A DNA stretch of 48,556 bases from a virus. Shown piece by piece: positions 3,619 through 29,193 of this stretch. The position numbers were made by a program, and so were the translations under genes. How positions within the stretch are numbered: the first letter of the stretch is position 1; each line of letters begins with the position of its first letter. The notes below the pieces were generated by a model. That model was given only the letters and a program-made list of their open reading frames with translations, ran no database searches and was not told where the DNA came from. The stretch spans positions 1 to 48,556 of IMG/VR virus record IMGVR_UViG_3300046009_010676. One strand, written 5' to 3'.

Positions 3619-4401
3619 TTATTTTTTATTAAAATTAATTAAAGCTTCTTCAAGTGCGTGGTAAGGTTCACCCAAAGCTGAAGTTATTCCTGTTCCAGTG
3701 TGCATAAATAAAAAGATGTATGTTTTATTTCCAGACAAAACTTCATTAACTGAATGAGAGGTCAAGCAGGGAAGAAAAACTATGCTACCAGCAGATGGCT
3801 TTATTGAATATCCCAGATCATCAAAGACAATCTCTCCACCTTCGTAGTTATCGTTAAGATATATAAGAGATGTCCAGTCCATAGTGTTTTTTGGATTCAA
3901 TATATTTCTATCTATATGTGGTCCCATGCCACCGCCAGTTCTATACTTTCTAATACAATAGTTTCTGGTTATGTGGTGAGGCAAATCATTATTTGTTTTT
4001 TCTGACCAAATTTTTAAGGCGTTTATGTAGTCATCTTCTATCATCTTAATAGCTGGCAAAGATTTCTGATGATCTACGCTATTACTAGCATGTTCAGATA
4101 TATCTTTTTTTGGCCAAAAGTTGTTATTATCGTTGTAAGACAAATCCCAATCTAGTAGCTTAGAAACACCTCTCAACGAGTGTTCATTATCTGGAAATAT
4201 TTGCTCCCATTTTGTCATATCGTATGGGTCTAAGCTAACTGGATAACCATCAATCCATGTAGTCCATGATGGAAAAACTTTTAGAATTTCTGGGTTTTCG
4301 TTGTTTAATTCTACAAAATCTAAAAACTCTTTAGCTTTAGGAAATGCATTTTCTATGTATATTACGCCACCAGGCATGTCGTGAATTATAGGAGTAGTCA
4401 T
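3619..4401 (-). CDS. Fe(II)/2-oxoglutarate oxygenase (prolyl-4-hydroxylase-like)
   Basis: 260 residues. The double-stranded beta-helix core is in the second half: GPHIDRN supplies the H-x-D iron ligands, then TSLIYLNDNYEGGEIVFDD, KPSAGSIVFLPCLTSHSVNE (distal His) and GNKTYIF, where a Lys replaces the usual Arg that binds 2-oxoglutarate. The YLND-x-Y-x-GGE-x-x-F pattern is diagnostic of P4H-type oxygenases. Substrate unknown; related phage proteins may hydroxylate proteins or nucleic acids. Preceded by an extended -10 promoter 6 nt from the ATG. Confidence 0.85.
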   Translation of the reverse strand: MTTPIIHDMPGGVIYIENAFPKAKEFLDFVELNNENPEILKVFPSWTTWIDGYPVSLDPYDMTKWEQIFPDNEHSLRGVSKLLDWDLSYNDNNNFWPKKDISEHASNSVDHQKSLPAIKMIEDDYINALKIWSEKTNNDLPHHITRNYCIRKYRTGGGMGPHIDRNILNPKNTMDWTSLIYLNDNYEGGEIVFDDLGYSIKPSAGSIVFLPCLTSHSVNEVLSGNKTYIFLFMHTGTGITSALGEPYHALEEALINFNKK

Positions 4402-4407
4402 AGAATA

Positions 4408-4416
4408 ATTATAGCA
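4408..4416 (-). promoter_or_regulatory. Extended -10 promoter, leaderless type
   Basis: TGCTATAAT on the minus strand, overlapping the last codons of the upstream gene and ending 6 nt before the ATG of the 2OG oxygenase at 4401. No -35 is visible. Same layout as 306-314. Confidence 0.6.
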
Positions 4417-4597
4417 CCTCTTTGTTTATTGCTTCTTTAATGACTGGGTCCAGCCTGTCCCAATGACCATTTTCGCTACCCTGATAAGCTACACCAGTTT
4501 CTCTATCAATCAAAAGCCATTTTTCTGGACACTTAGTTTTAACCTGCAATGTAACAGATTTTAATATAGTTTTAAATTTAAATCCAGGTCTCAACAT
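4409..4597 (-). CDS. Hypothetical protein downstream of GroES
   Basis: 62 residues: basic N-terminal third (MLRPGFKFKTILKSVTLQVK) followed by a predicted small beta sheet (CPEKWLLIDRETGVAYQGSE). The WLLIDRETG pattern resembles a short OB- or SH3-like strand pair, but no family is recognised. Its ATG abuts the GroES stop (TAAATG). Confidence 0.6.
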   Translation of the reverse strand: MLRPGFKFKTILKSVTLQVKTKCPEKWLLIDRETGVAYQGSENGHWDRLDPVIKEAINKEVL

Positions 4598-4894
4598 TTA
4601 TCCTTTTATTGCGAGCACACTTTTTGTATTTAGAAGTAAGTACTTTTCTCCATCTGCATCTTCAATGTCAGTTCCGCTATTTTGATTATAATAAACTGTA
4701 TCATCAACTTTAAGTCCAGATATAGGAATCAGCTCTCCCTTGTAGTTGTATTCTCCATTGCCTAAATCTAAAATCTTTCCAGTTCTAAGGTTAGATTCAC
4801 TTAATGAAGCCATGAGCACTATGCCAGAAGAGGTAGTCCTGTCCTCTACTTTATCTTCTTTAATTAATAAGAGGTTGCCAAATGGCTTTATCAT
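4598..4894 (-). CDS. groES: GroES-like co-chaperonin (Cpn10)
   Basis: 98 residues, the usual Cpn10 length. Starts IKPFGNLLLIKEDKVEDRT (strand 'P-x-x-D-R-V-x-V' region), followed by SSGIVLMASL in place of the mobile loop with its G-I-V-L, then GKILDLGNG, VDDTVYYNQNSGTDIE and YLLLNTKSVLAI, which match the roof and C-terminal strands. A phage GroES would cap the host GroEL to fold phage proteins, as gp31 does in T4. No GroEL is in this window. Confidence 0.85.
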   Translation of the reverse strand: MIKPFGNLLLIKEDKVEDRTTSSGIVLMASLSESNLRTGKILDLGNGEYNYKGELIPISGLKVDDTVYYNQNSGTDIEDADGEKYLLLNTKSVLAIKG

Positions 4895-4904
4895 CTAAGT
4901 ATTC

Positions 4905-5066
4905 CTATTCTTCAAAAAATTCTTGGGTTTCCCAAAATTTATCTTTTTTGTATTGCTCTTGAATTCTTTTTGCATTAAAAATAAAAGACATATCTCGATA
5001 AAGCTTAAAGCCTAAATATGCTGATAAAACAAATACAATTAATCCAATTATAATAAAGTTATTCAT
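4905..5066 (-). CDS. Single-TM mini-protein
   Basis: 53 residues found in an otherwise empty gap. Residues 3-20 (NFIIIGLIVFVLSAYLGF) form one transmembrane helix, followed by a charged cytoplasmic tail ending in EFFEE. The ATG lies 6 nt after a consensus promoter (5073-5101), which strongly supports it as a gene. It would head the transcript containing groES. Confidence 0.65.
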   Translation of the reverse strand: MNNFIIIGLIVFVLSAYLGFKLYRDMSFIFNAKRIQEQYKKDKFWETQEFFEE

Positions 5067-5072
5067 ACTACT

Positions 5073-5101
5073 ATTATACATTCTTAGGATAATATTGTCA
5101 A
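5073..5101 (-). promoter_or_regulatory. Consensus promoter, leaderless type
   Basis: TTGACA at 5096-5101, 17-nt spacer, TATAAT at 5073-5078 on the minus strand. The -10 ends 6 nt before the ATG at 5066. Structure identical to the promoter at 3585-3613. Confidence 0.85.
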
Positions 5102-5104
5102 TGC

Positions 5105-5641
5105 TTATATTTCTTTATTTAGTGAATTAACAACTAGATCAACATCGCTTATTTTGACATAACCGCCTAAGCTTAAAACTATTCTATTCTTTGTTCCTAC
5201 TACTGGGGTGCTCATGTGAGCCCATTTAGAAGCAATGTTTATCCAAGACTGTCCTTCTTCTATACTGTACTCTTTACCATCTACCACTGGCATTCCACCG
5301 CCATCTGGCTTGGACACTAAAAAGTTAAGCCTAAAGTGCTCGTAACCATCAATTGTTGAATCTCTATGTGGGTGTACAAATCCACTTTCACCATTTACTC
5401 CTATAAAAATTCCATAAACTGGCTCTTCTAAAAATGAATTTATTCCAATCTCTTTAAATTTTTGAGATCTTATTGTTTTTAAGTAATCTGTTACTGGTGT
5501 ATCAACATTAGTCACGCTGCAGTATCTTCTTGCGTTACCATTGTTTTTAAAGAACTTATCGTTGTCAAAGTTGTTAAGGACAAAGTCAATTACGGCTGCA
5601 GATTCTTCTGTGCTCAATACTGATTCTGTTTTAATTTTCAT
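5105..5641 (-). CDS. 2OG/cupin-fold oxygenase-like protein
   Basis: 178 residues. The core reads FVHPHRDSTIDG (H-x-x-D/H-R-D iron-ligand region), RLNFLVSKPDGGGMPVVDG, EGQSWINIASKWAHMSTPVV (distal His) and NRIVLSLG (Arg for 2-oxoglutarate), the order of a double-stranded beta-helix Fe(II) dioxygenase. It is close in layout to the AspH-like gene just upstream, whose end it overlaps by 11 nt. Substrate unknown. Could be a non-catalytic cupin if the H-x-D spacing is not met. Confidence 0.7.
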   Translation of the reverse strand: MKIKTESVLSTEESAAVIDFVLNNFDNDKFFKNNGNARRYCSVTNVDTPVTDYLKTIRSQKFKEIGINSFLEEPVYGIFIGVNGESGFVHPHRDSTIDGYEHFRLNFLVSKPDGGGMPVVDGKEYSIEEGQSWINIASKWAHMSTPVVGTKNRIVLSLGGYVKISDVDLVVNSLNKEI

Positions 5642-6194
5642 TTAAAACCTCTTCTGGAATTATATCTACCACTAGATGAACTCTATCGGTATCACCATCG
5701 TTAAAAACTGAATGATAGGCAGTGTTATTTATTTCCCAACACTCGCCAACTTTCATAAACTTAAGCTCATCATTGACTGTATATGAAACCTTATCATTTG
5801 TTAAAATTGGTATGTGAAATCTTCTTACATTGGAAAGATACCAGCCTGAATCCCTGTGATGCGGCACATTTTTTTTAGAGGGAAGCTTGATATACATAAC
5901 TCTTGCAACTAGCCCAGGATGAATACTCAATAGTGAATCAATTATATGTTTTATTTCAAGGTAGTGCTCTTCCTTGACATACTTTTTTTCTACATTAATT
6001 TCAGATCCTGGAGTCCACGTCAGAGGAAAGTTTTGAATCATGTAGGTATATGTGTCTTTGTGCTCTTTAAACATATGTTGCCTGCTTGTATCAATAGCCC
6101 ACTCTTTATCAAACCTAGACACTGATTTTGATATCTCAGACACATCAAATGTGTCTATATATCTATAACTAGATACATTATTTTTCATCTTCAA
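5631..6194 (-). CDS. Aspartyl/asparaginyl beta-hydroxylase-like oxygenase
   Basis: 187 residues. The signature NVPHHRDSGW then VRRFHIPILTND, KVGECWEINNTAYHSVFNDG and DRVHLVVDI matches the catalytic block of Asp_Arg_Hydrox (AspH) enzymes: H-x-x-D iron ligands, a substrate-side R-x-H, the W-x-x-x-N-x-x-x-H-S segment and the final R-x-H. These enzymes hydroxylate Asp/Asn side chains or amide-linked substrates. The listed start is TTG at 6194; an ATG two codons in (6188, MKNNVSS) is the likelier start. Confidence 0.8.
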   Translation of the reverse strand: MKMKNNVSSYRYIDTFDVSEISKSVSRFDKEWAIDTSRQHMFKEHKDTYTYMIQNFPLTWTPGSEINVEKKYVKEEHYLEIKHIIDSLLSIHPGLVARVMYIKLPSKKNVPHHRDSGWYLSNVRRFHIPILTNDKVSYTVNDELKFMKVGECWEINNTAYHSVFNDGDTDRVHLVVDIIPEEVLNEN

Positions 6195-6981
6195 TTTCCT
6201 TTAGGTGCTTGTATACTGAATAGTCTATGTAGTTATTTTCTATTATTTTTTCTTTTTCTGAATCTGTTAGCAGGCTAAGTAGTTCTGAACTAGACATAAG
6301 ATTTCCATCTCCATAATTAGCAGTGCCAATGTTAATCTTATTTTCTGCAAACTTTATATCTACGTTATAATTATCTTTAAACCAACTATTTATTTCTTGT
6401 TTAAATAAGTCTATGTTGTCTAAAGTAGATTTTATCTTAAACTTATTTATTTGAGACATTGCGTTTTCTAGTGTCGTATGATCGTTTTCTACAAACCAAG
6501 TAAACGCTTCCCCCTTTTTTAAAAATGGGTACATCAGATCCTCGTAATGATCTTTGTAAAAGGTCATAGGATTAAAAGATCTTTCGTCTGCTGGATTACA
6601 AATAAATCTAGACTGATAGTTATTGTGTAGTTCAAAGTTAGGGTCCTCAAACAAATAGTATCTTAGCTTTTCTATCGGGAGGCTTTTTTCAGTATACTCA
6701 GGCCTATTATAAAGAGCCTTATTGTATACGAAATTAAAGTAGCTTACTCTTGCCTCAATTGGATTTCTTACTATAGTTGCAACGTCAAGGCTAGGAACTT
6801 TTTCTATGGGATAAGTACCAGCATGCATAGATATGTAAGGCTTATTAACAAATCCATTGTTATTTGGAAAGTGGGTAGTAATATGATGAGCTATATTATT
6901 TTCATCTAATGACTCTTTTATATTTTTAGATATATACTGTCCCGCTGTTTTGGGTATGTGCAAAAAGTAAAGTTGTTTCAC
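6178..6981 (-). CDS. Sulfotransferase family 2-like protein
   Basis: 267 residues. FLHIPKTAGQYISKNI at residues 6-21 is the hallmark opening of the Sulfotransfer_2 / heparan-sulphate-type family ('iHIPKTAGts'), and VATIVRNPIEARVSYFNFVY at about 87-106 is the 3'-PB loop (R-N-P...R-x-x-S-x-Y). The second half contains the helices typical of carbohydrate sulfotransferases. Most confident of the three. Likely donor PAPS; acceptor perhaps a glycan or teichoic polymer. GTG start overlapping the upstream TGA (GTGA). Confidence 0.85.
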   Translation of the reverse strand: MKQLYFLHIPKTAGQYISKNIKESLDENNIAHHITTHFPNNNGFVNKPYISMHAGTYPIEKVPSLDVATIVRNPIEARVSYFNFVYNKALYNRPEYTEKSLPIEKLRYYLFEDPNFELHNNYQSRFICNPADERSFNPMTFYKDHYEDLMYPFLKKGEAFTWFVENDHTTLENAMSQINKFKIKSTLDNIDLFKQEINSWFKDNYNVDIKFAENKINIGTANYGDGNLMSSSELLSLLTDSEKEKIIENNYIDYSVYKHLKEIEDEK

Positions 6982-7805
6982 AGATGCATCTCATTCCACT
7001 TGTTTAGGCTTCTTCCCTGGGCAAATGAAGCTTCCTTATGTCTTTCCCTGAGTATGTCTTTCCACTCTTCTTCAGTATGCTGAGATTTTTCCATGTGCCA
7101 ATCTTCAGATCCTGGATACTCATACCTCCAATAAGCTCTTATGAGAGCCTTTGAGCCATTTTTAGCTATCATTGGGCTGTGGTAAAAGGGATGTCCAGAA
7201 GGAAACATTACAAGATCGCCTGCGCCTGGCTTGTAAAATATATGATTAATCAGAGTTTCTTTATCATCGCTTAACTCTATAAGATTTATTCCTCCGTCAT
7301 CATAATCATCATTTAAGTAAAAAAGACATGTTGTTCCAAACTTTAGTCCAGGGTCTTTTCTTCTTTCTTCCTGAAAATCAGTATGGTAATTCATTCCTTG
7401 AGCAGAGTTTACTCCCATGCCGTCTTTATAGTAGGCTATGTCAACAGAATCCCAACAAAAATTATCATAGTCAACTTTTACTGAATCAAAGTAATTTTTA
7501 GAGGACTCATGAAAAACTTTAAATAGCTCTGACACATATTTATTATTTGATATATCATCATCCTTTTCAGCAAAATGATCGCTTGAGAAAACAGACCACT
7601 CATCTTCTGTAGGGAAAGACTCAAAGCATTTAGCTCTGGTAGGTATAAGTATGTGAAATCCAAACTCATACCAGGGAATGGACTTATCGCTGTGGTTTGT
7701 TAAATAAAAATCTAGCATTTCTTTTGAGCCTTTAAAAACATTTTTAAAAACCCAAACTTTTTCATGAAGTTTTTCTACTTCTACTTCATTGCCATTTATT
7801 ATCAA
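6978..7805 (-). CDS. Fe(II)/2-oxoglutarate oxygenase
   Basis: 275 residues. MNYHTDFQEER gives the H-x-D pair; TCLFYLNDDYDDGGINLIEL is the YLND..GG strand; KPGAGDLVMFPSGHPFYHSP carries the distal His; and SKALIRAYWRYEY the Arg region. P4H/PKHD-type. A tail rich in acidic and Trp residues follows. TTG start, with AGGTTAGGTG upstream as Shine-Dalgarno-like sequence. It is first in the 7805-5105 oxygenase and sulfotransferase run, in which each gene overlaps the next. Confidence 0.85.
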   Translation of the reverse strand: MIINGNEVEVEKLHEKVWVFKNVFKGSKEMLDFYLTNHSDKSIPWYEFGFHILIPTRAKCFESFPTEDEWSVFSSDHFAEKDDDISNNKYVSELFKVFHESSKNYFDSVKVDYDNFCWDSVDIAYYKDGMGVNSAQGMNYHTDFQEERRKDPGLKFGTTCLFYLNDDYDDGGINLIELSDDKETLINHIFYKPGAGDLVMFPSGHPFYHSPMIAKNGSKALIRAYWRYEYPGSEDWHMEKSQHTEEEWKDILRERHKEASFAQGRSLNKWNEMHL

Positions 7806-8683: not shown

Positions 8684-9682
8684 CTACCCCCATATTGCAG
8701 CTGAGCATTTGGTGCACATATTTGAGTATGAGTCTTCTATCATGTCAAACCTTGCTTTGCTAAGCCATATTTCTTTTAGGCTAGAATTGTTGGAGTTTCC
8801 ATAAACAGTTTTGAAATCAAAGTCGGCACAACAAATAAACAAATCCCCATTTGGATTAATGTGTATCCACTCATTAGTTCTGCTTCTAACACCCAATCCA
8901 CCATTACATCCAATAACCTTTTTGCCTTCTCCCGCCAAATATTTATTAATGGCTGAAGTCTGATCAATTATTCCTGAGTCAGCAAGGTGTCCTGCCCTGT
9001 CGTAAAGGTGGTGTGCTGGAAAAACATCAATTGATGGGAATATAGATTTAAGCAGGATAACTTCCTGAGCTAAATCGCCAGACTCTACATCTAAGTTTAG
9101 ATCTGGAGCTCCAGGTAGTATATCTAACCATCCACCATTTTCAACTAATGAGTTACTATTTAATCCGTTTACCATTAAATAAAATCTATTTTCTAATGAT
9201 AATTCCTTTAGCTCTTCTGCTGCATACAAAACGTTATCTACCATTTTGTCAAACATTTTTTCATTTAAGTTTACATACTTAGACCATCTGGTTTTATCTC
9301 CAGATGGTATATTTAAAAGTATTCCCCCTACTACATCTATATTCTTTTTAATTATATCAACTTTTTTCTTTGTAAGTGGGGTGCCATTTGTAAGGATGTT
9401 TATAGTAAAGTTATACTTCCTATATAAATCAAACATCTCTTCAAAGTTTTTATAAAGAAGAACTTCATTGTAGTTGGCTGTATAAATATTTTTTAGATTA
9501 GGATCAACAAAATCGCCTTTGCCATTATGAAGTTGAGATAGTATGTTTTCTAACTCCCCCAACTCCATATCTCTAATGGCAGACTTTGGATTTCCTTCAT
9601 AAGAAACTGGGCAAAACCAGCAACCAGCATTACATAGACCGTTGACATCTATTTGTACTGCACTGATCTTATATTGTGACAA
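8684..9682 (-). CDS. Radical SAM protein with SPASM-like C-terminus
   Basis: 332 residues. CNAGCWFCPVSYEG at about 17-30 is the C-x3-C-x2-C motif that binds the SAM-cleaving 4Fe-4S cluster. FTINILTNGTPLTKKKVD is the beta-4 'TNG' element. The C-terminus has GCNGG, then INPNGDLFICCADFDFKTVY, GNSNNSSLKEIW and CTKC, the Cys spacing of a SPASM/twitch domain for auxiliary clusters. SPASM enzymes modify peptides or activate sulphatases. TTG start, 1 nt after the upstream stop. Flanked by a Dps-like protein and CxxCGC mini-proteins, which might be substrates or cluster carriers (inference). Confidence 0.85.
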   Translation of the reverse strand: MSQYKISAVQIDVNGLCNAGCWFCPVSYEGNPKSAIRDMELGELENILSQLHNGKGDFVDPNLKNIYTANYNEVLLYKNFEEMFDLYRKYNFTINILTNGTPLTKKKVDIIKKNIDVVGGILLNIPSGDKTRWSKYVNLNEKMFDKMVDNVLYAAEELKELSLENRFYLMVNGLNSNSLVENGGWLDILPGAPDLNLDVESGDLAQEVILLKSIFPSIDVFPAHHLYDRAGHLADSGIIDQTSAINKYLAGEGKKVIGCNGGLGVRSRTNEWIHINPNGDLFICCADFDFKTVYGNSNNSSLKEIWLSKARFDMIEDSYSNMCTKCSAAIWG

Positions 9683-9683
9683 C

Positions 9684-10154
9684 TTAGTCTTTTAATGACT
9701 TCCATGGGTTTGGAGGAAGCTTTAAGCTCGATTCCAAGAACCAGTTCCACTCTTGATGAGCAGATAGTCGATCAGATAGATATGAAGACAGTCCGTACTC
9801 GTTGTTCTCATTTGAAACAGAGATCAAGTTCTTGATATCTTCAATCATTTTTTTATTAATTGGTACTAGATGAATGGCCATCTCAACACCACAATAAGTA
9901 TCTGGCTTAACGTTTCCTAGGGTTTGGTACTTTGCGTAATCTTCAATAGTGTATGAAGCTTCTGCACCTAGTCGTCTCAACCAAGTAGACGTATCGTTAA
10001 CAGCTTTTTCTGAGTTTTGATAGATGTCCTCATAAACAATTCTAGACTGTCTCATCAAAACAGATTCTGTATTCCAGAAAAAGCCTCTTACTAAATCAGT
10101 ATATACAACTGAATTAGCCTGAAAAGCTTTTAACAGGTTAATTAGATTTTCCAT
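9684..10154 (-). CDS. Dps/ferritin-like four-helix protein
   Basis: 156 residues, close to Dps length. The first helices (NLINLLKAFQANSVVYTDLV, RGFFWNTESVLMRQSRIVYE, DIYQNSEKAVNDTSTWLRRL) follow the Dps pattern of helix A, a W-containing loop and the helix-B 'h-x-x-x-h-D-x-x-x-x-h-x-E-x-h-x-x-L-G' motif. The last helix contains DRLSAHQEWNWFLESSL. Dps proteins oxidise Fe(II) with H2O2 and protect DNA; canonical ferroxidase residues are only partly recognisable (H replaced in FFWN). Good AAAGGA ribosome site. Immediately upstream of the radical SAM gene. Confidence 0.65.
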   Translation of the reverse strand: MENLINLLKAFQANSVVYTDLVRGFFWNTESVLMRQSRIVYEDIYQNSEKAVNDTSTWLRRLGAEASYTIEDYAKYQTLGNVKPDTYCGVEMAIHLVPINKKMIEDIKNLISVSNENNEYGLSSYLSDRLSAHQEWNWFLESSLKLPPNPWKSLKD

Positions 10155-10300: not shown

Positions 10301-10522
10301 TTATTTAATCTTCCCACCGAATTTAGCCCATAATCTTTCGTGAAGAAAGAAAAAAAGCATCTCTAGAGAAAGATAAGATAAACCGTATAGGCCAACATAT
10401 TCCCATTCTGCTTCTCCAGTAAAATATTTAAGAGTAAAATAAATTATTCCAGATACAAAAGTAAAATGTACAAAAGGCCAACTGATAGTCTTTAGCAACG
10501 ACCTTCTCTTAGAGTCCATCAC
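10301..10522 (-). CDS. DUF2061-like membrane protein, copy 1
   Basis: 73 residues. KRRSLLKTISWPFVHFTFVS followed by GIIYFTLKYFTGEAEW and LEMLFFFLHERLWAKFG matches DUF2061 ('RSllKaisWRvvgt...T......l.e...k..lyylHERvW'): two membrane helices and a conserved H-E-R-x-W. Start is GTG at 10522 or the adjacent ATG. DUF2061 is known as a partner or fusion of CysC in some bacteria; a second copy here (26121-26324) lies in the same operon as the APS-kinase fusion. Confidence 0.75.
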   Translation of the reverse strand: MMDSKRRSLLKTISWPFVHFTFVSGIIYFTLKYFTGEAEWEYVGLYGLSYLSLEMLFFFLHERLWAKFGGKIK

Positions 10523-10713
10523 TTCACTGCCTTCTTGGCTGGTGCCTTCTTGGCTGGTGCCTTCTTGGCTGGTGCCTTCTTGGCTGGTGCCTTCTTGGCT
10601 GGTGCCTTCTTGGCTGGTGCCTTCTTGGCTGGTGAGCTTAGCTCTTTTAAAATTAATTCAATCTCTGATTCAACTGATTTGAACCATAACCAATTTTTTA
10701 ACTTATTTAACAT
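10519..10713 (-). CDS. Histone-H1-like protein with AKKAP tail
   Basis: 64 residues: a helical head (LNKLKNWLWFKSVESEIELI, LKELSS) followed by seven PAKKA repeats and AVK. Lys/Ala/Pro tails of this kind occur in actinobacterial HupB and in H1-like proteins and bind DNA non-specifically. The tail is encoded by a perfect 15-bp tandem repeat. Its ATG overlaps the upstream stop. Possible role in genome compaction or in altering host nucleoid; inferred. Confidence 0.7.
   Translation of the reverse strand: MLNKLKNWLWFKSVESEIELILKELSSPAKKAPAKKAPAKKAPAKKAPAKKAPAKKAPAKKAVK
10531..10635 (-). repeat. 15-bp tandem repeat, 7 units (PAKKA-coding)
   Basis: Seven head-to-tail copies of a 15-bp unit (plus strand CTTCTTGGCTGGTGC), nucleotide-identical except the last base of the final copy. 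Exact identity at synonymous positions means recent slippage amplification; copy number probably varies between relatives. Confidence 0.95.
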
Positions 10714-10876: not shown

Positions 10877-11506
10877 TTATAAAGACTTAGCAATCTCTTT
10901 ATTTCTGTCAGCATTTATTAAAAATCCTACCCTAGGGCCTTTAGCCCAAACCTTGTGTGTTGTATTTTTTGGGAAAAATAACAAGTCTCCAGGATTTAGT
11001 TCGTAAACTACCTTAGAGCTTTTGCCTTTTATTTCCCAAAACGAAGTTCCAATTGATTGAAGATAGCAAGCTGGCCAAGGGTCGCTATGCTCATTAACAA
11101 CTCTTTCTCCAAGTGAAACTTTTATTCCTTCACTATGCCATAAAGCTTCGCATGTACAGTTTCTGGCGTCCCACTCTTTATAATAACCACAATCTGCAAA
11201 ATCATAATCATACCCTGATTCTAAATTTATTTTCTTTAAAAAGTTTTTTATTTCTGGAAAGTCTTTCCATATCAAACCCGTTTGTGGGGCGAGCCAGAAC
11301 GGGTGCTGAGTTAAAATATTTCCATTGACACCTACACTGTCATCCTGACTTCTAACTTTTTCTTCAAGCTCTATGTTCTTGTCAATCGTTTGCCTGTATA
11401 TAAAATTTAATGTGTCTTGCCAATTAAACTCTGTTTTAAAATATTCTTTAATAAGTACAGCTTCTTCTGTAACTGCTGCTTCTTTAAATGTTGATAGTAG
11501 GCTCAT
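10877..11506 (-). CDS. Cupin/JmjC-like oxygenase domain protein
   Basis: 209 residues. The C-terminal half has NEHSDPWPACYLQSIGTSFW (H-x-D), VVYELNPGDLLFFPKNTTHK (P-G-D...P...T-H, distal His) and GPRVGFLINADR, the layout of JmjC/cupin_4 hydroxylases that use Fe(II) and 2-oxoglutarate. The N-terminal half is helical. Preceded by a strong hairpin that separates it from the secreted protein gene. Substrate unknown. Confidence 0.65.
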   Translation of the reverse strand: MSLLSTFKEAAVTEEAVLIKEYFKTEFNWQDTLNFIYRQTIDKNIELEEKVRSQDDSVGVNGNILTQHPFWLAPQTGLIWKDFPEIKNFLKKINLESGYDYDFADCGYYKEWDARNCTCEALWHSEGIKVSLGERVVNEHSDPWPACYLQSIGTSFWEIKGKSSKVVYELNPGDLLFFPKNTTHKVWAKGPRVGFLINADRNKEIAKSL

Positions 11507-16880: not shown

Positions 16881-16910
16881 ATTATACATTACCAAAGTGG
16901 TGAAAGTCAA
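16881..16910 (-). promoter_or_regulatory. Promoter of the WhiB-containing operon
   Basis: TTGACT (16905-16910), 18-nt spacer, TATAAT (16881-16886), with about 16 nt of leader including AAGG before the ATG at 16857. Unlike the leaderless promoters nearby, it has a normal leader. Confidence 0.7.
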
Positions 16911-17542
16911 CCATTTGGTGGCAAAATCATTTGCCAATGATGAGTTATTAACATTTTTCTTCCCTTTAAAACTTTTAGGGATTGATGAGAATATGGGGTG
17001 GAAGATGGATACATTATTATGCTTCCAGCCTGTGGCTTTATCTTTATATCTAAATCATTAAAGTAAAGCTCTCCGCCCTCATAGTCATCATTTAAATAAA
17101 CAACGATAGTATATGCTAAATAATAATTGTCTTCGTTAAGATCAACATGGGATCCCATGAAAGATCCCTCATCATACTTATTTATACCCATCATTGTTCT
17201 TGGGTCTGTAAGAAGTGAAACTGCATAATACAAGGCTTCTCTGTCTATATTAAAAATATTGGCATACTCAATAGCACATTCAGACATTTTGTTTGTTAAA
17301 CAGTTTATGGCAAATGCAGCTTTGGCTCTGTCTTTATCAGAATTTATTTCTACTATTTTATCTCTACGGACATCTTTAATGTCACCGTATCTTGTTGAAG
17401 AGCCGTGGCCATTCCATGGCCTCCAGTCACTAACCGCATCATTAGAAAGTGATTCTATCGCATCTATTATTTCCTGATAGTTTTCTATAATGCCTTTAAA
17501 ATAAACAATATTTTCTTCTGGTCTTTCTATAACTAAAGACAA
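16907..17542 (-). CDS. Fe(II)/2-oxoglutarate oxygenase
   Basis: 211 residues. Iron and co-substrate blocks in order: MGSHVDLNEDNYYLAYTIVV (H-x-D), YLNDDYEGGELYFND, KPQAGSIIMYPSSTPYSHQS (distal His) and GRKMLITHHWQ (R/K). Clear P4H/PKHD fold of usual size. TTG start, 2 nt after the 48-residue gene. Separate from the 0-8 kb oxygenase cluster and next to the endolysin, so it may be transcribed with the lysis genes. Confidence 0.85.
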   Translation of the reverse strand: MSLVIERPEENIVYFKGIIENYQEIIDAIESLSNDAVSDWRPWNGHGSSTRYGDIKDVRRDKIVEINSDKDRAKAAFAINCLTNKMSECAIEYANIFNIDREALYYAVSLLTDPRTMMGINKYDEGSFMGSHVDLNEDNYYLAYTIVVYLNDDYEGGELYFNDLDIKIKPQAGSIIMYPSSTPYSHQSLKVLKGRKMLITHHWQMILPPNG

Positions 17543-18907: not shown

Positions 18908-19102
18908 TTAGTCCTCTTTTCGTAGTGGTATGGTTAGAAGCCATATTGCTGTGGCAATCAAAGTGGCGACTCCGACCACTTGCTGGGCTGATCCAGTAAG
19001 GGTTAGCCAAGCAATAAAGAATCCTAATAGGGTGAATATTTGGGCTATACTTTCCTTGATTACTTCCCATATATATTTAAATAGGGCCTTGATTATTTTC
19101 AT
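18908..19102 (-). CDS. Two-TM small protein, candidate holin
   Basis: 64 residues with two hydrophobic helices (IAQIFTLLGFFIAWLTLTGS and VVGVATLIATAIWLLTIPL), amphipathic basic N-terminus and charged end RKED. Strong GGAGG Shine-Dalgarno 5 nt before the ATG, among the best in the window, suggesting high expression. The length and topology fit actinophage holins; the larger protein at 18272 is the alternative. Confidence 0.65.
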   Translation of the reverse strand: MKIIKALFKYIWEVIKESIAQIFTLLGFFIAWLTLTGSAQQVVGVATLIATAIWLLTIPLRKED

Positions 19103-21126
19103 TATATCCTCCTAGTCATTGCAGCTGCAATAATATTTGATGCGATAATTACTGGTATTACAACTTCTTGCGCTTTTTCTCTTTGGTCATCTGTCATATC
19201 TTTACCCCATTCTGATGGGCTAAATATCTTTTCAAAATCAATATCTGTAAGTGCTCCTATTGGATCCGCCAAAAATGCTTCTGTCTGAACCTCTGTTGTT
19301 GCGTCTGCTAAAGTATAAGGCATGCTTGCATCTCCTGCAGATTCTGCTCTAGACTCAAACTCAACAAATGCCTGTGCAAGCTCTGGGTTGCTTTTCATAG
19401 CTTCTGCAACCTGAGCAACATCTGAAGCTTTGATTCCTAGATTTTCTGCAACCTCTGCTTTAGCCTCTTGGGTTAAAGCATTTAGGGTTTGACTAACTGC
19501 AGATATCTGCTCTGGAGACAATACAACTAGTTTATTATCTTTGCTTGTGAGATTTGCAATAACATTAGAAAGATCTTCTTCAGTTCCGCTTCCTTTTTCA
19601 GGAACTAAAGCTGACAGAACCTCATCTTTAATTTCAACATCGTCTGTAGGCTCAGGTGTGGGCTCGTCTGTAGGCTCAGGTGTGGGCTCGTCTGTAGGCT
19701 CAGGTGTGGGCTCGTCTGTAGGCTCAGGTGTGGGCTCGTCTGTAGGCTCAGGTGTGGGCTCGTCTGTAGGCTCAGGTGTGGGCTCGTCTGTAGGCTCAGG
19801 TGTGGGCTCTGGACTTGGTTCTGGCGTAGGCTGATTTGCTGCAGCGTTTGCTGCTGCTTGTGCGATTGCAGCATTCAATTCTCTTTCAGATTGTTCAAAA
19901 TAATAAGTCCATGCATCTTCAATAGCAGCATTCAAATCAATTATAGATTGATCGTATGTGTTGATTCTATTATTCTTTAATTCTAAAGCAGATGTTAGGT
20001 TTTGTTGTGCGATTGTGTGGTTTTGGATTGCTGTTGTAAGGTTTGATGTGAGATTTTGTAAGGCTTGAACTTCTTGATTATAAACATTTAGTTTGTCATT
20101 ATATACTGCTAATTTATTATTATAGTTTGTTTGTGCTATAGCCTGTCCTGCAACAGCATCATTGTAAGCATTTATCTGTGCTTGAGTTGGTCCTGATCCA
20201 GAAGAAAATGTATTAAGATTACAGCTAAAATTTTGTCCCCAGACTCTTGGATTTCCAGCATAATCACATCCTGCTCCAGTCCATCCACCAGGTATAGCCC
20301 AGCCAAGATGATAGGAACCTGGTCCTCCACCGTTATACCACCATATTTCTACATCTAAAGTTTTGTCTTCACTAACATCATATACGGGAGAGTAATCGCT
20401 CCAAGTTGTCCCTTGCTCTACCCAGTTATCAACAGCAAGTTGCCCGTCAACATACATTCTAAAACCATCATCCGTATATCCTGCAAAGTAGGTTTGTGTA
20501 AACCATGAAGGGACTGTTATCTGTCCAGTAAATTTAACTATAAGGTTTTCATATCTATTTCCGCAGACTGGAAGACTCATATAGCTTGAGTTCCAGGTGC
20601 CAGAACAAAGAACAGATCCTGTGGTAGCAACATTACCCTGCCTAACAAGAGTATAAACAGTGTATGCCAAACCTGTTGCTCCAGCACTCTGCATACTTGA
20701 TTGAGTAGTTTGAACATTAATATTGGCTATGCTGAGTGCATCTTGAGCATCATTCTTTTCTTCAAGAGCGTTGTCTTTATGTTCAAGGGCCAAGGCTACT
20801 GTGACTGTCTGGCCATCTACATTTGACTGAGCAAGGTTTTTAGCTTCCAGTGCTGCGGATTCTGCATCTACTGCATCATCGTAGGCATCATATGCATCGT
20901 CTTTAAGCTCCATAGCATTTGTTGCATATGTAAATTTATTTTCTGCTATGTCTATAAGATCTATAAAATCATCTTGATAAACTAAATTAGATACCTTACT
21001 ATTAAGTTCTTCTATTTCTTGAGCGGCTAGGCTAAGTGGATCATCTCCGTGGGCAGGAGTAAGAAATACCCATCCAAACATTAAAATGGTGGCTAATGAT
21101 AATCTCCATGCTTTAGTCCTAGTCAA
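19102..21126 (-). CDS. Secreted PA14-domain protein with PTEPTDEP linker
   Basis: 674 residues. Signal peptide MTRTKAWRLSLATILMFGWV ending TPAHG (about 27). Two coiled-coil stretches (about 30-150 and 300-430) flank a PA14-like domain at about 150-285 with the hallmarks TYFAGYTDDGFRMYVDGQLA, DNWVEQGTTWSDYSP and HLGWAIPGG. Residues about 437-492 are PTPEPTDE repeats. The Ala/Glu-rich helical C-terminal part ends in a hydrophobic stretch (VVIPVIIASNIIAAAM). PA14 domains bind carbohydrates. Candidate for host surface adhesin or wall-spanning lysis protein. TTG start with AGGAG. Confidence 0.75.
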   Translation of the reverse strand: MTRTKAWRLSLATILMFGWVFLTPAHGDDPLSLAAQEIEELNSKVSNLVYQDDFIDLIDIAENKFTYATNAMELKDDAYDAYDDAVDAESAALEAKNLAQSNVDGQTVTVALALEHKDNALEEKNDAQDALSIANINVQTTQSSMQSAGATGLAYTVYTLVRQGNVATTGSVLCSGTWNSSYMSLPVCGNRYENLIVKFTGQITVPSWFTQTYFAGYTDDGFRMYVDGQLAVDNWVEQGTTWSDYSPVYDVSEDKTLDVEIWWYNGGGPGSYHLGWAIPGGWTGAGCDYAGNPRVWGQNFSCNLNTFSSGSGPTQAQINAYNDAVAGQAIAQTNYNNKLAVYNDKLNVYNQEVQALQNLTSNLTTAIQNHTIAQQNLTSALELKNNRINTYDQSIIDLNAAIEDAWTYYFEQSERELNAAIAQAAANAAANQPTPEPSPEPTPEPTDEPTPEPTDEPTPEPTDEPTPEPTDEPTPEPTDEPTPEPTDEPTPEPTDDVEIKDEVLSALVPEKGSGTEEDLSNVIANLTSKDNKLVVLSPEQISAVSQTLNALTQEAKAEVAENLGIKASDVAQVAEAMKSNPELAQAFVEFESRAESAGDASMPYTLADATTEVQTEAFLADPIGALTDIDFEKIFSPSEWGKDMTDDQREKAQEVVIPVIIASNIIAAAMTRRI
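19649..19808 (-). repeat. 24-bp tandem repeat coding PTEPTDEP
   Basis: Six complete and one partial copy of a 24-bp unit, nucleotide-identical across copies, encoding an 8-residue Pro/Thr/Glu/Asp unit. Perfect identity points to recent expansion. Such rods span cell walls in actinobacterial surface proteins. Confidence 0.95.
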
Positions 21127-21800: not shown

Positions 21801-23228
21801 CTAAGATAGTATATCAAATTTATACAACTTTTGCCAATCTTCTACATCTTTTTTATCATTTAGCAGTGGCTGCCCCTTGATATTTAAGCTAGTATTAAGT
21901 AAAACTGGAACCCCAGTTTTAATATAAAATTTATTTAAAACTCTATATAAGCCAGGATGCTGATCTTTTGTAACAGTTTGAACCCTTGATGTGCCATCAA
22001 TATGAACTACAGAAGGAATTTTTTCTGGCTGTATGCATTTTACTGTGTATTGCATATATGGGCTTTCAAAATCCATATCGAACCATCTGTGAGCATGTTC
22101 AGCCATTACTACAGGTGCAAAAGGCCTGAACATCTCTCTTTGTTTAATAAGATTAACTTTATCCTTTATGCCTGGATCTCTTGGATCTGCCAGGATACTT
22201 CTATTGCCTAGTGCTCTTGGACCATACTCTGCTCTTCCTGATGCTACTGCTACGATTCCATCCTTTAGTATACCGTCCACAATTTGCTGGACTGGATACT
22301 CTCCTTCAAGGTCGTATCCAAGGTAGGGGTTCTTCCAATCAATATGTTTTCCATATAGGGCTGCTGCTGCACCTAAAGAGCTACCAGCGTCTCCTGGGTT
22401 AGGCATAATCCAAATCATATCAAATATTTTCCATAGAAGTGTATTTGCCGAAGAGTTTAGTGCACATCCACCCATGAATACTAAATTATTTTTACCAGTC
22501 ATTCTTTTTGCCATACGCATAAAATCATTTAGTCTTTGTTCATATACCATTTGAACTGCTGCTGCTATATCAAACTTATCCTGCTCTGTTATATTCATCC
22601 CCCAGTCAGTAATACCTTTGTGAAAGTTGTATTTTTGTTGATCGTACTGCGGGAAATACTCATCTACTTCTTTATAATATCTTTTCCAGTCTCCATATCC
22701 AGCCATACCCATCATAATATATTCTTCTTGGTTTGGCATTAGCCCTATAAGTTTTGTAAATGCAGAGTAGAACAATCCAAAACTTACTGGATAATTTTGC
22801 TTATACTTAAGCTTAATATCATTGCCCTCGCCAATCCAAATTGTTGAGGTATTAAATTCACCAATTGAATCTAGAACTACAATACATGCATCATCAAATG
22901 AACTTGTATAGTATCCTGCTGCAGCATGGGAGCGGTGATGTTTAAAATAATGAACTGGAACGTCTATGGGAAATTTTGGCTTCCAATCGCTAGCTCCACC
23001 ATGCATCATAATTCTAGACTTTTTAAGCAGGGGTTTTTCATAATATGCAATTACATCTGGTGTCCCATAGTTCAAAGCATCTAAAATAATTTCTTTATTG
23101 TTGTACCAGTCGTTTTTCTTTTTGCTATACCTTTCTGCATGACCAGCAAACAATATCTCTCCATCTTTAATTAAAGATACTGATGCATCATGAGAGGTTT
23201 CATTGATTCCAAGTATTATACCTTTCAA
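21801..23228 (-). CDS. Carbamoyltransferase (NodU/CmcH/TobZ family)
   Basis: 475 residues. N-terminal Kae1-like domain: IILGINETSHDASVSLIKDG, HYFKHHRSHAAAGYYTSSFD (the metal-binding H-H-x-x-H) and ACIVVLDSIGE; then NLVFMGGCALNSSANT. The C-terminal YrdC-like part has SGRAEYGPRALGNRSILADP and NKFYIKTGVPVLLNTSLNIK. These enzymes transfer a carbamoyl group from carbamoyl phosphate through carbamoyl-AMP onto hydroxyl groups. Phage members are common; the acceptor is often proposed to be a modified base or a glycan. Slightly shorter than the 550-600 residues usual in bacteria. TTG start overlapping the SGNH gene. Confidence 0.92.
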   Translation of the reverse strand: MKGIILGINETSHDASVSLIKDGEILFAGHAERYSKKKNDWYNNKEIILDALNYGTPDVIAYYEKPLLKKSRIMMHGGASDWKPKFPIDVPVHYFKHHRSHAAAGYYTSSFDDACIVVLDSIGEFNTSTIWIGEGNDIKLKYKQNYPVSFGLFYSAFTKLIGLMPNQEEYIMMGMAGYGDWKRYYKEVDEYFPQYDQQKYNFHKGITDWGMNITEQDKFDIAAAVQMVYEQRLNDFMRMAKRMTGKNNLVFMGGCALNSSANTLLWKIFDMIWIMPNPGDAGSSLGAAAALYGKHIDWKNPYLGYDLEGEYPVQQIVDGILKDGIVAVASGRAEYGPRALGNRSILADPRDPGIKDKVNLIKQREMFRPFAPVVMAEHAHRWFDMDFESPYMQYTVKCIQPEKIPSVVHIDGTSRVQTVTKDQHPGLYRVLNKFYIKTGVPVLLNTSLNIKGQPLLNDKKDVEDWQKLYKFDILS

Positions 23229-24316: not shown

Positions 24317-24601
24317 CTATATCCAATGCTTAATTATAGCACTCGCTGCCAGTATTGTCCAAAGTATGTTGAACAAAATTATTGTGGGTAGAGTTTTTAC
24401 TGTTGATGACCAGATCAACGCAAGGCTTGATACTATGGCAAATATGTATAGCCACCACCATTGCTTACCAAATAATAAGCCTGGGAATATAATAGATATC
24501 TTTGTCATGAAAGCAAAGAATTCAACAGTATTAGGTCTATCCCAATACTTTCTATGTCTCATTGTCTTTAATGCATTTATCCATTCAGTTCTAAATTTCA
24601 T
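24317..24601 (-). CDS. Small membrane protein
   Basis: 94 residues. Amphipathic N-terminus (MKFRTEWINALKTMRHRKYW) then three hydrophobic helices at about 30-46, 48-66 and 72-90 (ISIIFPGLLFGKQWWWLYIF, AIVSSLALIWSS, PTIILFNILWTILAASAII). It overlaps the halogenase stop by 4 nt. No family recognised; may be a membrane partner of the halogenase unit. Confidence 0.65.
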   Translation of the reverse strand: MKFRTEWINALKTMRHRKYWDRPNTVEFFAFMTKISIIFPGLLFGKQWWWLYIFAIVSSLALIWSSTVKTLPTIILFNILWTILAASAIIKHWI

Positions 24602-26121
24602 TTTAGAGCCTCCAAAAATTCATTATGGCTAACGCATTTTGAAGCCCTGCTTTTTTGGTACCCAACAAAATAATTGTACACGTCTAATCCTTTTTTATAA
24701 TCGTCTTCACCATCGATATAAATTGATGCTATAGACTTGTTAATTGTTTCTTGAAATGATCCAATAATAAACCAACTATTTGGGCTCCATCTTTCTCCAT
24801 TATCAGTCTTATTTGGAAGTCTATTTTTCCAAAGATCGATTCGTTTCTTTAAATCTTCTGGTGCATTTTCATAAGAAAATTTTTTCCAGAACTCTGTGTC
24901 TTGTCTTTTAGTCATATAGTGAAAATATATAAAGCTAGCTATGTCATTGTTCATTGATGCTATAGTGCTATTAAACTGATTCCTTATTTCATCCGACCCG
25001 CCATTAATCCAATCGGGTGTTCCAAAAATATGAGAGAGTCCTATAATGCTAACCCAAATAGATGTGGCCTCAAGTGGCTCGATAAAGTTTGCTGATAAAC
25101 CTACTGCAACACAATTTTTTATCCACGGCTCTTCAAAGTACCCAGCGGAGAAATTAAATCCTCCTTTATCTTTTCTTGGATATGTTGGAACATACCCTAA
25201 AAAATTTTCTATCTCTTCTACTGCTTGTTCTTCAGATATTAAAGAAGAGTCGTAAACGTACCCACATCCAAATCTATTTTGCAGAGGTATCTTCCACATC
25301 CAACCGTACTTCATGGCTATGGCTTCTGTGTACGGAGGAATATCATCTGTTACGTCAATAAAAAATGGAACAGCAGAATCTGACGGAAGGAAGTCGCTGT
25401 AGCTTTTCCACTTTGAATTAAATGTTTTTCCAATAATTAACCTGTGAAATCCACTACAGTCAAATACAAAATCACAATCTATTACTCCAACATTTTCTAA
25501 ATCTAAAGACTTAATATTTCCTTGATCATCCAACAAAACTTCTTTTATTATGCCATCAATTACATTTATGCCTCGCTCTTGGCCAATCTCTTTCAATCTG
25601 TTTGCAAGCTTGGACGCATTAAAGTGAATTGAAGTACTTGATATATTATCGTAAGATAATGTTGGATCGTTTTCATTGTGAGATTTAAATACAAACGGAA
25701 CTCTGTTTTCTTCTGAAATTTTTTCTGTAAAGTCCACCTGTTTTAATCCATTGTTTAATAGTAGACTCATTGTTAAAAGTGTGCTATTTGCTACAAATGG
25801 GGATTTAGAAAAGTTAGGTCCTAAAGACATGTCCTTTGCTGGAAATCCATGATAGAAGAAGTCCCCATCATTATTCCAATTTGTAAACTTAATACCATTT
25901 TTTATTGTTGCATCACAATTTTTTACCAAGTCAGATAAAGGTATGCCAAGGTGTTCAAATAAAGTATTTAGGTGTGGTGTGGATCCCTCTCCAGCTCCCA
26001 GGATACCTATCTCTTTAGATTCTATAACAGTAATGTTTAAATTAGGTTGAGATTTTTTTGCCATAAGTGCAGTAAGCCAGCCAGCTGTTCCACCACCAAC
26101 TACTACAACTTCCTTTGGCAT
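24598..26121 (-). CDS. Flavin-dependent tryptophan-halogenase-like enzyme
   Basis: 507 residues, full length for the family. GGGTAGWLTALMAKKSQP at about 9-26 is the FAD-binding G-x-G-x-x-G of halogenases; GAGEGSTPHL, then ATIKNGIKFTNWNNDG with the Lys that forms the chlorinating intermediate, YGWMWKIPLQNRFGCGYVYD containing the diagnostic W-x-W-x-I-P, and FIEPLEATSIWVSI with the conserved Glu region. Such enzymes use FADH2, O2 and halide to halogenate Trp or other aromatics. Bound substrates of phage members are unknown. TAATG overlap with DUF2061. Confidence 0.93.
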   Translation of the reverse strand: MPKEVVVVGGGTAGWLTALMAKKSQPNLNITVIESKEIGILGAGEGSTPHLNTLFEHLGIPLSDLVKNCDATIKNGIKFTNWNNDGDFFYHGFPAKDMSLGPNFSKSPFVANSTLLTMSLLLNNGLKQVDFTEKISEENRVPFVFKSHNENDPTLSYDNISSTSIHFNASKLANRLKEIGQERGINVIDGIIKEVLLDDQGNIKSLDLENVGVIDCDFVFDCSGFHRLIIGKTFNSKWKSYSDFLPSDSAVPFFIDVTDDIPPYTEAIAMKYGWMWKIPLQNRFGCGYVYDSSLISEEQAVEEIENFLGYVPTYPRKDKGGFNFSAGYFEEPWIKNCVAVGLSANFIEPLEATSIWVSIIGLSHIFGTPDWINGGSDEIRNQFNSTIASMNNDIASFIYFHYMTKRQDTEFWKKFSYENAPEDLKKRIDLWKNRLPNKTDNGERWSPNSWFIIGSFQETINKSIASIYIDGEDDYKKGLDVYNYFVGYQKSRASKCVSHNEFLEALK

Positions 26122-26324: not shown

Positions 26325-26596
26325 GGCAGAAGTTCTGGTCCTGGTCCTGTTTCAATTTTGGCACGAGTTCCACTCCAATAAATCTTTCCGTCACAAGCAA
26401 TATTCATCTTTTGATCTCCACCCACAATGCTTGACTCTCCGTACATATACCCCCGAATCTCAATATGACTTGCTAGAGTCTCTTCCCCATCAACTACCAC
26501 ACGCCAATAAAGATCTCCATCTCCTACCTTAGTGTTGTATCTCACCTGTATATGTTGGTTTGGCTTAAAAAACCACTTCTTAAATTTATCTATCAT
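26321..26596 (-). CDS. Hypothetical beta-rich protein
   Basis: 91 residues with strands QHIQVRYNTKVGDGDLYWRV, HIEIRGYMYGESSI and IACDGKIYWSGTRAKIET. Basic amphipathic N-terminus (MIDKFKKWFFKPN). No family recognised. Starts in an ATGA overlap with the APS-kinase gene and its end overlaps DUF2061, so it belongs to the same unit. Confidence 0.65.
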   Translation of the reverse strand: MIDKFKKWFFKPNQHIQVRYNTKVGDGDLYWRVVVDGEETLASHIEIRGYMYGESSIVGGDQKMNIACDGKIYWSGTRAKIETGPGPELLP

Positions 26597-27354
26597 ATAC
26601 CCATCTCCTTACGCTTTTGCGTAGCAGAAATAGCATGAATGTCTGCCCCCAAATCTACCTGTTCAATTTTATATCCTACATCTCTACCGTATACAATGTT
26701 AGTAATGTTAGGTAGTCTTAGTACTAATGCGCCATCCATAAACTCATCCTTGGCAATATATTCTTTTACCTGATCAAACTTAAGTGGATCTTTTTCGCTT
26801 GTGTTGTATGTATTGCGTACTCCAAGTAGCACCTGATCTGTTCTCTTTCCCGCTTCTTTATAAAGAGCGTGATGTCCTTCATGCCATGGCTGGTAACGTC
26901 CAAGCATCAGTGTCGTTGGAGCTGACCAATCATGCAATCCAAACTTTTCAATAATGTGTGAGGCCTTTGCATCTGCATTAAGGTTATGGCTAATAAAGGA
27001 CACATCAAAATTATCTGGTCTCTCAAACATTTTATTAGTGTCTTCAAAGCGTCCTTCTGCTAAAGTGTCCATGAATACAAGAACGTCTGGCTTACCAAAT
27101 GCTGCACGAGTTATTTCAGTTGGGCATACGAAATCAACGATGACGGGAGCAACACCCTGCTTAGCAATTAAACGAGCCATCTCACCCATTCGCCTTGCCT
27201 GCTCGATTCTGTCTTCTGGAGTAAAGCTTAAATCAGAGTTTACTGTTGCACGAACCTCATCTGCATTAAGATGAATAGCATTTATGCGTTCCTTTAGTGC
27301 TTTGGCTAATTCAGTTTTCCCTGAGCCTGGAAGGCCGATAATCTGTATAATCAT
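26593..27354 (-). CDS. APS kinase-like domain fused to HxGH nucleotidyltransferase
   Basis: 253 residues. Residues 5-125 follow APS kinase (CysC): Walker A GLPGSGKTELAKAL, HLNADEVRATVNSDLSFTPE then DRIEQARRMGEMARLIAKQG ('D-x-V-R...N-x-D-L-x-F...D-R...R-R'). Residues 148-253 are a second domain: LGRYQPWHEGHHALYKEAGK with HxGH at 158-161 and a closing ISATQKR at 242-248, the two motifs of cytidylyl- and adenylyltransferases (NMNAT or sulfurylase superfamily). The 'R-x-Q-P-x-H-x-G-H' form is closer to NadM/NMNAT than to ATP sulfurylase. It may make PAPS for the three sulfotransferases, or act on a nicotinamide or other nucleotide. AGGGAA ribosome site. Confidence 0.85.
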   Translation of the reverse strand: MIIQIIGLPGSGKTELAKALKERINAIHLNADEVRATVNSDLSFTPEDRIEQARRMGEMARLIAKQGVAPVIVDFVCPTEITRAAFGKPDVLVFMDTLAEGRFEDTNKMFERPDNFDVSFISHNLNADAKASHIIEKFGLHDWSAPTTLMLGRYQPWHEGHHALYKEAGKRTDQVLLGVRNTYNTSEKDPLKFDQVKEYIAKDEFMDGALVLRLPNITNIVYGRDVGYKIEQVDLGADIHAISATQKRKEMGI

Positions 27355-28680: not shown

Positions 28681-29193
28681 CTAAGCCGAAAGAATTTTTG
28701 CTAGAGCATTGATTGTTGCTGCAATTCTTCCGATATCACGCAACTGCTCAACTGTGTAGCCTTCTTCCTTCAATGTTTCATAATGTGCTTTAACACAAAA
28801 ATGACATTTGCCAATAATTGATGAGGCTAAAGAGTAAGCTTCAAACTTAGCCTTTGTTGTTCCACCATGAGAAGAAATAGCATTCATTCTTAGCTGTGCT
28901 GGCAACCCCTTTAGGTTTGGGTCATCTGCCATCTCAATGTATGGGTACCAAACATTGTTTTGTGCCATGATAGCACCAGCTGTTAAAGCTGCATTTTTTT
29001 CAACTTCATCAGTAGCGCTTGCAGTAATAAATGCAAGCAGCTTAGAATTTCCAGTTGCAAATGCTGCAGCAATAGATAAGTATGTTGCATGCTCTGGATC
29101 AATAGTAGACCTGTTGATTACAGCATCAAGATTTAACTTAATGTCTTTTGCGTAGTCTGGTAAGGAATCTTTTAGCTGGTCAACCCATAACAT
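28681..29193 (-). CDS. ahpD: AhpD-type alkylhydroperoxidase
   Basis: 170 residues, close to mycobacterial AhpD in length. KCHFCVKAHYETLKEEGYTV has Cys130 and Cys133 with His137, and Glu118 (KFEAY) precedes, the same spacing and numbering as the M. tuberculosis enzyme; the intervening His is shifted by one (C-H-F-C rather than C-S-H-C). AhpD reduces peroxides itself and links AhpC to lipoyl reductant. Coupled to ahpC by TAATG, reproducing the actinobacterial ahpC-ahpD operon. Confidence 0.95.
   Translation of the reverse strand: MLWVDQLKDSLPDYAKDIKLNLDAVINRSTIDPEHATYLSIAAAFATGNSKLLAFITASATDEVEKNAALTAGAIMAQNNVWYPYIEMADDPNLKGLPAQLRMNAISSHGGTTKAKFEAYSLASSIIGKCHFCVKAHYETLKEEGYTVEQLRDIGRIAATINALAKILSA

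Follow-up and report, generated by a model that had tools for sequence, protein, structure and literature searches.

We analyzed a group of putative 2-oxoglutarate (2OG)-dependent oxygenase genes in a 48,556-nt viral record (IMGVR_UViG_3300046009_010676, positions 1-48,556), which is referred to at its full length as the window. Genes are named by their start coordinate, "OG" stands for a 2OG-Fe(II) oxygenase gene and "ST" for a sulfotransferase-like gene, and G and L numbers designate relative records and loci, respectively, which are metagenomic contigs. An initial annotation had proposed six oxygenases with H-x-D...H motifs, and all six open reading frames were found where it had placed them, on the minus strand. 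Membership in PF13640 (Pfam cut-off 27 bits) was detected for 6978 (6978-7805; 28.1 bits), which is P4H/PHD-like with a C-terminal helix, for 3619 (3619-4401; 46.1 bits), which is PKHD/P4H-like, and for 16907 (16907-17542; 49.8 bits). The AspH-type call for 5631 (5631-6194) also held, since this Asp/Asn beta-hydroxylase-type gene matched PF05118 (Asp_Arg_Hydrox) at 52.9 bits, above the cut-off of 22.6. Gene 10877 (10877-11506) is cupin/JmjC-like, with a JmjC_2 match of 21.1 bits that falls slightly under the cut-off of 22, and 5105 (5105-5641) had no Pfam match.

The HxD...H iron triad was invariant in all five orthologue alignments that cover the six genes: H141/D143/H209 in 6978, H113/D115/H161 in 5631, H92/D94/H142 in 5105, H140/D142/H184 in 10877, and H162/D164/H216 in the joint alignment of 3619 and 16907. 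A lysine in place of arginine in 3619 had been singled out as a substitution; however, prolyl 4-hydroxylases (P4H) usually have lysine where arginine stands in others, so this residue does not set 3619 apart. We considered whether 10877 could be a 3-hydroxyanthranilate dioxygenase, to which it has a weak match, but rejected this assignment: the position aligned with the glutamate ligand of that enzyme (Glu57) is occupied by an invariant alanine, Ala146.

The initial annotation had called for each enzyme to be classified by structure; this was accomplished with predicted models for 6978 and 5105, both of which matched prolyl hydroxylases, while the remaining members were placed by profile. The 6978 model (predicted local distance difference test score, pLDDT, 93.8) showed the double-stranded beta-helix fold with high confidence and matched PHD2, P4H, P3H1, OGFOD1, and the PBCV-1 P4H, as well as PolD and a Pseudomonas P4H bound to EF-Tu. 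The same fold was recovered with moderate confidence for 5105 (pLDDT 60, 4 sequences), and the best Protein Data Bank (PDB) matches of this model were all PHD2-type prolyl hydroxylases (E 1.6e-4). In profile searches against solved structures, 6978 matched P3H1 (E 0.0012), and 3619/16907 matched the PKHD enzyme Sbal_3634 (3.4e-16), P4H (4e-10), and the PBCV-1 P4H (5c5t, 6.7e-10). The 5631 profile matched AspH-type beta-hydroxylases and, as its best solved match, free L-proline cis-4-hydroxylase. Analysis of dN/dS indicated purifying selection in all five testable oxygenase families (omega 0.03-0.33, compared with 0.04-0.11 for the terminase TerL); 5105 had no suitable orthologue. Taken together, 3619, 16907, and 6978 are predicted to be prolyl/peptidyl hydroxylase-like enzymes of the P4H, PHD2, P3H1, and PKHD kind, 5631 is a predicted member of the Asp/Asn-hydroxylase family, and 5105 is placed near PHD2 by its model.

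The initial annotation had described four of these oxygenases as one cluster with a sulfotransferase, which was confirmed with a correction to the operon boundaries. Genes 6978, 6178, 5631, and 5105 make up one compact operon in which successive genes overlap by 4, 17, and 11 nt, whereas 3619 belongs to the transcription unit that follows. The two units are parted by a predicted sigma-70-like promoter on the minus strand (TTGACA-17-TATAAT, 5101-5073), which matches the consensus at 12/12 positions and was called by consensus only. The second unit comprises a GroES/Cpn10-like co-chaperonin gene (4598-4894, minus strand; PF00166, 63.4 bits, cut-off 21.1), a small gene, and 3619. A second perfect TTGACA-17-TATAAT promoter lies at 3613-3585 and, together with the one at 5101-5073, brackets the ends of this unit.

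The interleaved sulfotransferase-like gene, 6178 (6178-6981, minus strand), carries HIPKTAG and RNPxEARxSYF motifs of the 3'-phosphoadenosine-5'-phosphosulfate (PAPS) site, and these 5'-phosphosulfate-binding (HIPKTAG) and 3'-phosphate-binding (RxPxxxxxSYF) motifs were invariant or nearly so in an alignment of relatives (A5). The sulfotransferase assignment was made from these motifs and from a relative, L081:107-811, that reached 20.2 bits for Sulfotransfer_2, below the cut-off of 22; 6178 itself had no Pfam match. A PDB profile search for the sulfotransferase substrate class gave no useful match. The window encodes a second sulfotransferase at 1433-2041 on the minus strand (Sulfotransfer_4, PF17784, 67.7 bits, cut-off 22.8), and 2175 is sulfotransferase-like by motif only. 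In addition, a minus-strand gene at 26593-27354 combines an adenosine-5'-phosphosulfate (APS)-kinase-like, PAPS-forming domain (PF01583, 55.9 bits, cut-off 21.1) with a nucleotidyltransferase-like domain and could possibly supply PAPS to the sulfotransferases.

The window phage likely infects a freshwater actinobacterium, because it carries a WhiB gene (PF02467), an actinophage marker (PMC10202952), and because its TerL (30525-32327) is 63% identical over 99% of its length to TerL of Streptomyces BE-cluster phages. An AhpC/AhpD-like peroxiredoxin pair is also present (28681-29729), but a host call from it was abandoned since the closest AhpC relatives, from Burkholderiales, are uninformative at 68%. 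The block is not an assembly artefact, since contigs from other samples carry its genes at 88-100% identity per gene.

We next compared the block with the same region in relatives. The order OG(6978)-ST-AspH-(variable slot)-OG(3619) is kept in G005, G012, G013, and G015, and a G004 fragment reads OG-ST-AspH-GroES, with no 3619 orthologue detected at that site. The slot held by 5105 in the window is absent from most relatives (e.g., G012) or filled by other oxygenases; in G015, it contains another 2OG gene and a natural fusion of an AspH with a PF13640-like domain (L116:5657-7554, with the fusion at L116:6313-7554). A second AspH gene adjoins a sulfotransferase-like gene in G004 and G012. The context of AspH genes in isolated phages was set aside: virion or baseplate neighbours were seen in Mosig and ctXG1253, and annotation elsewhere was too poor to be counted.

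The same enzyme types recur in the relatives as ordered arrays within the virion module. Scanning loci fetched with 3619-derived patterns, a sample that favours PF13640 genes, we found 60 runs of at least three OG genes, using iterative local hidden Markov models (E 1e-5) seeded from G004 for the gene labels. Arrays contain 4-10 OG genes (maximum 10) plus two DUF6065-like proteins, D6b (PF19541) and D6a (phrog_7084) (L106:11263-11979 and L106:12667-13464 in the G004 array), which sit mid-array in nearly every array. A DUF6065-like protein was present in 53 of the 60 runs, corresponding to 51 distinct records once two same-record locus pairs were removed. These arrays, on freshwater virus contigs, usually have tail-fibre genes as neighbours and precede the portal, protease, and capsid genes; a labelled fibre, receptor-binding protein, or portal gene lay at most two genes from the run end in 42 of 60, and many of the others were cut by contig ends. 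Assignments among the neighbours included Mtd_N, Laminin_G_3, collagen with S74, portal, and major capsid protein. In G012 (116.5 kb), which carries 12 such enzymes, six stand in one run inside the virion module: one flank holds an Mtd_N-type fibre gene and an FN3-(PPFF)n gene, the other a LamG-like adhesin, portal, protease, and capsid genes. Outside the array, G012 also has a PF13640 oxygenase gene immediately after a methyltransferase-like gene (L101:5772-7067).

The arrays share a conserved slot order, a-b-D6b-D6a-c-d-e-f, and in a quick tree with Shimodaira-Hasegawa-like approximate likelihood ratio (SH-aLRT) support only, the slots formed old clades. The slots are therefore not recent duplicates, which rules out recent tandem duplication as the origin of the arrays, and separate jobs are the natural reading. 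By this phylogeny, the array slots are predicted to be ancient orthologues.

In one sublineage (L067:7109-8077, L069:1704-3038, L073:1770-3107, and similar), the array's neighbouring fibre protein, of FN3/PASTA-(PPFF)n type, has a Hint/intein-like end that starts with CVDGDT.ILT and finishes with NWYFAGNILTHNK. Matches to Hint_2 and Intein_splicing were sub-threshold, and the resemblance suggests that this protein may process itself after the repeat. Collagen-like genes adjoin arrays in some lineages and are absent from G000, G004, G005, G008, and G012. Among 59 collagen-like GXY segments, proline was common at X and hardly found at Y, where threonine and glutamine dominate.

Several observations connect the window block to these arrays. 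In the tree, 16907 falls in a set with array members L051/L055 (support 96), thus nesting in a virion-array clade, and 6978, which is of the array "slot d" type, falls in a set with three array members (support 95). The 6978-type slot is absent from the arrays of G004 and G012, both of which instead carry a 6978-type gene in their OG-ST-AspH block. In L081, an ST-AspH pair lies directly upstream of array genes, which are followed by fibre, receptor-binding protein, portal, protease, and major capsid protein genes, and L051 combines an AspH, a 6978-like (41%), and a 16907-like (53%) enzyme in a single run. We read the window block as probable dispersed or relocated members of the array system, in whichever direction the movement occurred.

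The window also encodes repetitive proteins and further modifying enzymes. A Cys-rich protein with (PFFPPFF)n repeats (47486-48556, minus strand, 5' end cut off, no Pfam match) belongs to a kind of protein found beside the arrays of relatives and is a candidate substrate. Near 16907, positions 19102-21126 encode a PA14 domain and a long (PTPEPTDE)n repeat that evolves fast between relatives, another Pro-rich candidate substrate. Near the JmjC-like 10877 lies a (PAKKA)n Lys/Ala/Pro repeat protein (10519-10713), with a similar repeat gene in the same place in G015 (L116:10787-11026); it is a possible lysyl-hydroxylase substrate. Elsewhere are a Trp-halogenase family flavoenzyme (24598-26121, 350 bits), a NodU/CmcH-type carbamoyltransferase (21801-23228), and a radical SAM/SPASM protein (8684-9682) adjoining a ferritin-like protein (9684-10154).

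We lean slightly toward the explanation that a freshwater actinophage uses a dispersed set of protein-modifying enzymes to hydroxylate its virion adhesins or tail fibres at multiple sites, some of which are then sulfated. In this scheme, the PF13640 (P4H/PKHD-like) and AspH-type enzymes would hydroxylate particular residues of phage-encoded adhesins or tail fibres, perhaps prolines in PPFF or adhesin repeats, in a reaction that requires Fe(II), O2, and 2-oxoglutarate. The PAPS-dependent sulfotransferases encoded in the window would probably then add sulfate to some of the hydroxyls, drawing on PAPS made by the product of the APS-kinase-like gene. In the relatives, these enzyme types are arranged as an ordered array in the virion module, next to fibre genes of the FN3-(PPFF)n, Mtd_N-type, collagen-like, or lectin-like kinds; in the window lineage, by contrast, an accessory region houses the 6978-type and 16907-type enzymes and the AspH-sulfotransferase pair. 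The gain could lie in fibre stability, solubility, or receptor binding. The suggestion of the initial annotation that so many oxygenases point to coordinated hydroxylation of a polymer or to diversified substrates is supported by the anciently diverged, position-conserved subfamilies, which usually stand beside adhesin genes in relatives, and the hydroxylated polymer is likely protein.

Several points weigh against this explanation. Neither substrate nor product has been observed, and the substrate is one that we infer. The window record stops before the virion module, such that the array is known from relatives alone (TerL 93-95% identical), and the window block has accessory genes, not fibre genes, as its neighbours. 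Gene 3619 joins array members weakly (support 88, long stem). The best profile match of the 5631 AspH, free L-proline cis-4-hydroxylase, leaves room for small-molecule substrates. Classical collagen 4-hydroxylation was rejected as the reaction involved, given that proline is mostly at X and hardly at Y and that collagen genes are absent from the closest relatives.

The accessory location would fit enzymes that instead hydroxylate host translation proteins (EF-Tu or ribosomal proteins), the kind of target on which PPHD, YcfD, and OGFOD1 act, and in this way retune the infected host. The fold matches to OGFOD1 and to the Pseudomonas P4H bound to EF-Tu and the JmjC-like nature of 10877 are consistent with this idea, which we nevertheless judge unlikely because one or two host targets would not explain the 4-10 virion-module enzymes beside adhesins in relatives. 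The free L-proline cis-4-hydroxylase match of 5631, along with the match of 6978 to PolD, fits the tailoring of a small molecule or peptide, in which 2OG enzymes, sulfotransferases, the radical SAM/SPASM protein, the Trp halogenase, and the NodU-type carbamoyltransferase, all present in the window, would act as a dispersed biosynthetic set. This seems improbable, since the genes are spread over 25 kb, no non-ribosomal peptide synthetase, polyketide synthase, or other scaffold gene was recognized among the scanned window genes, and the array context is virion fibres. Turnover of 2OG is inherent in the chemistry of all these enzymes, and independent auxiliary metabolic genes that lower 2OG or act on nitrogen metabolism have been proposed for cyanophages (PMC9602691); however, if any 2OG consumer sufficed, one would not expect subfamilies that diverged long ago, keep their slots, and lie in synteny with adhesin genes, making this account very improbable here. 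Modification of phage-DNA nucleobases by TET/JBP-like or other enzymes, which the initial annotation had raised and we dropped, is the least credible alternative: Tet_JBP (PF12851) matches (18.1 bits for 3619, 13.8 bits for 16907) peaked at 24.5 bits against a cut-off of 34.9 across 10 records and covered the generic core only, no thymidylate-synthase homologue was found in the 10 records (other DNA-modification families not having been searched), and among solved structures the closest relatives are prolyl hydroxylases that act on peptides.

Extending the proposed hydroxylation and sulfation of virion proteins to the wider group, we suggest tentatively, with somewhat more doubt than confidence, that freshwater actinobacterial tailed phages possess an assembly line dedicated to hydroxylating virion proteins. 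It would consist of 4-10 prolyl-hydroxylase-like enzymes in an array that is ancient and ordered by slot, together with DUF6065 partners and sometimes an AspH-sulfotransferase module, and would act on specific residues of neighbouring fibres or adhesins ((PPFF)n, collagen-like repeats). If true, the fibres of abundant freshwater phages would be chemically modified beyond what sequence alone reveals, which would bear on host-range prediction, virion stability, and metaproteomics. Aquatic-phage 2OG oxygenases or "prolyl 4-hydroxylases" are abundant, and their use has been termed cryptic or uninvestigated (PMC9301287, PMC9602691); the arrays offer a concrete set of candidate substrates in the adjacent fibre proteins.

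Among known systems, bacterial PKHD/PiuC and P4H enzymes (3dkq, 9ghl, 5hv0, 4j25) gave the best profile matches of 3619/16907, but the window enzymes are phage-borne and clustered. The Stanwilliamsviridae-like Streptomyces BE-cluster phages (Gilson and others) resemble the window phage in TerL, but the array queries found no match in them. Indeed, no cultured actinophage record matched the array oxygenase or DUF6065 query; the oxygenase query matched cyanophages and a few others among phage records, and the DUF6065 array protein matched 0 of 50,697. Nor did we find a paper on DUF6065 in the open-licence literature. In Hafunaviridae haloarchaeal viruses (HF2, HJTV-1), a D6a homologue (~27% identity) lies a few genes from adhesin/tail-fibre genes, but the stretches read carry no annotated 2OG array. 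Synechococcus phage S-SCSM1 has 24 2OG-Fe(II) oxygenase genes whose function, according to the paper, was never tested (PMC9602691). It likewise combines many PF13640-type enzymes with a Trp halogenase and a sulfotransferase; in its first 100 kb, however, most 2OG genes stand alone or in pairs at scattered sites, with one between baseplate genes, and that stretch showed no ordered array flanked by fibre genes. Thus, many 2OG genes per phage are already known, while the ordered array appears undescribed in the open-licence literature searched.

A further parallel is found in giant viruses, where the mimivirus L230 hydroxylase accompanies viral collagens (PMC9546862). Phage-collagen work assumes that bacteria and viruses are without prolyl hydroxylation (PMC3368898). 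The giant-virus system and the present one both pair virus-encoded peptidyl hydroxylases with repetitive proteins, and the PBCV-1 P4H (5c5t) is among our profile and fold matches. The present arrays differ in belonging to tailed phages, in their many fixed-slot enzymes, DUF6065 partners, and (PPFF)n fibres, and in having collagen-like genes in some lineages only, with proline mostly at X. If the assembly-line proposal is true, phages would mature their host-recognition proteins after translation by a system not so far described in them.

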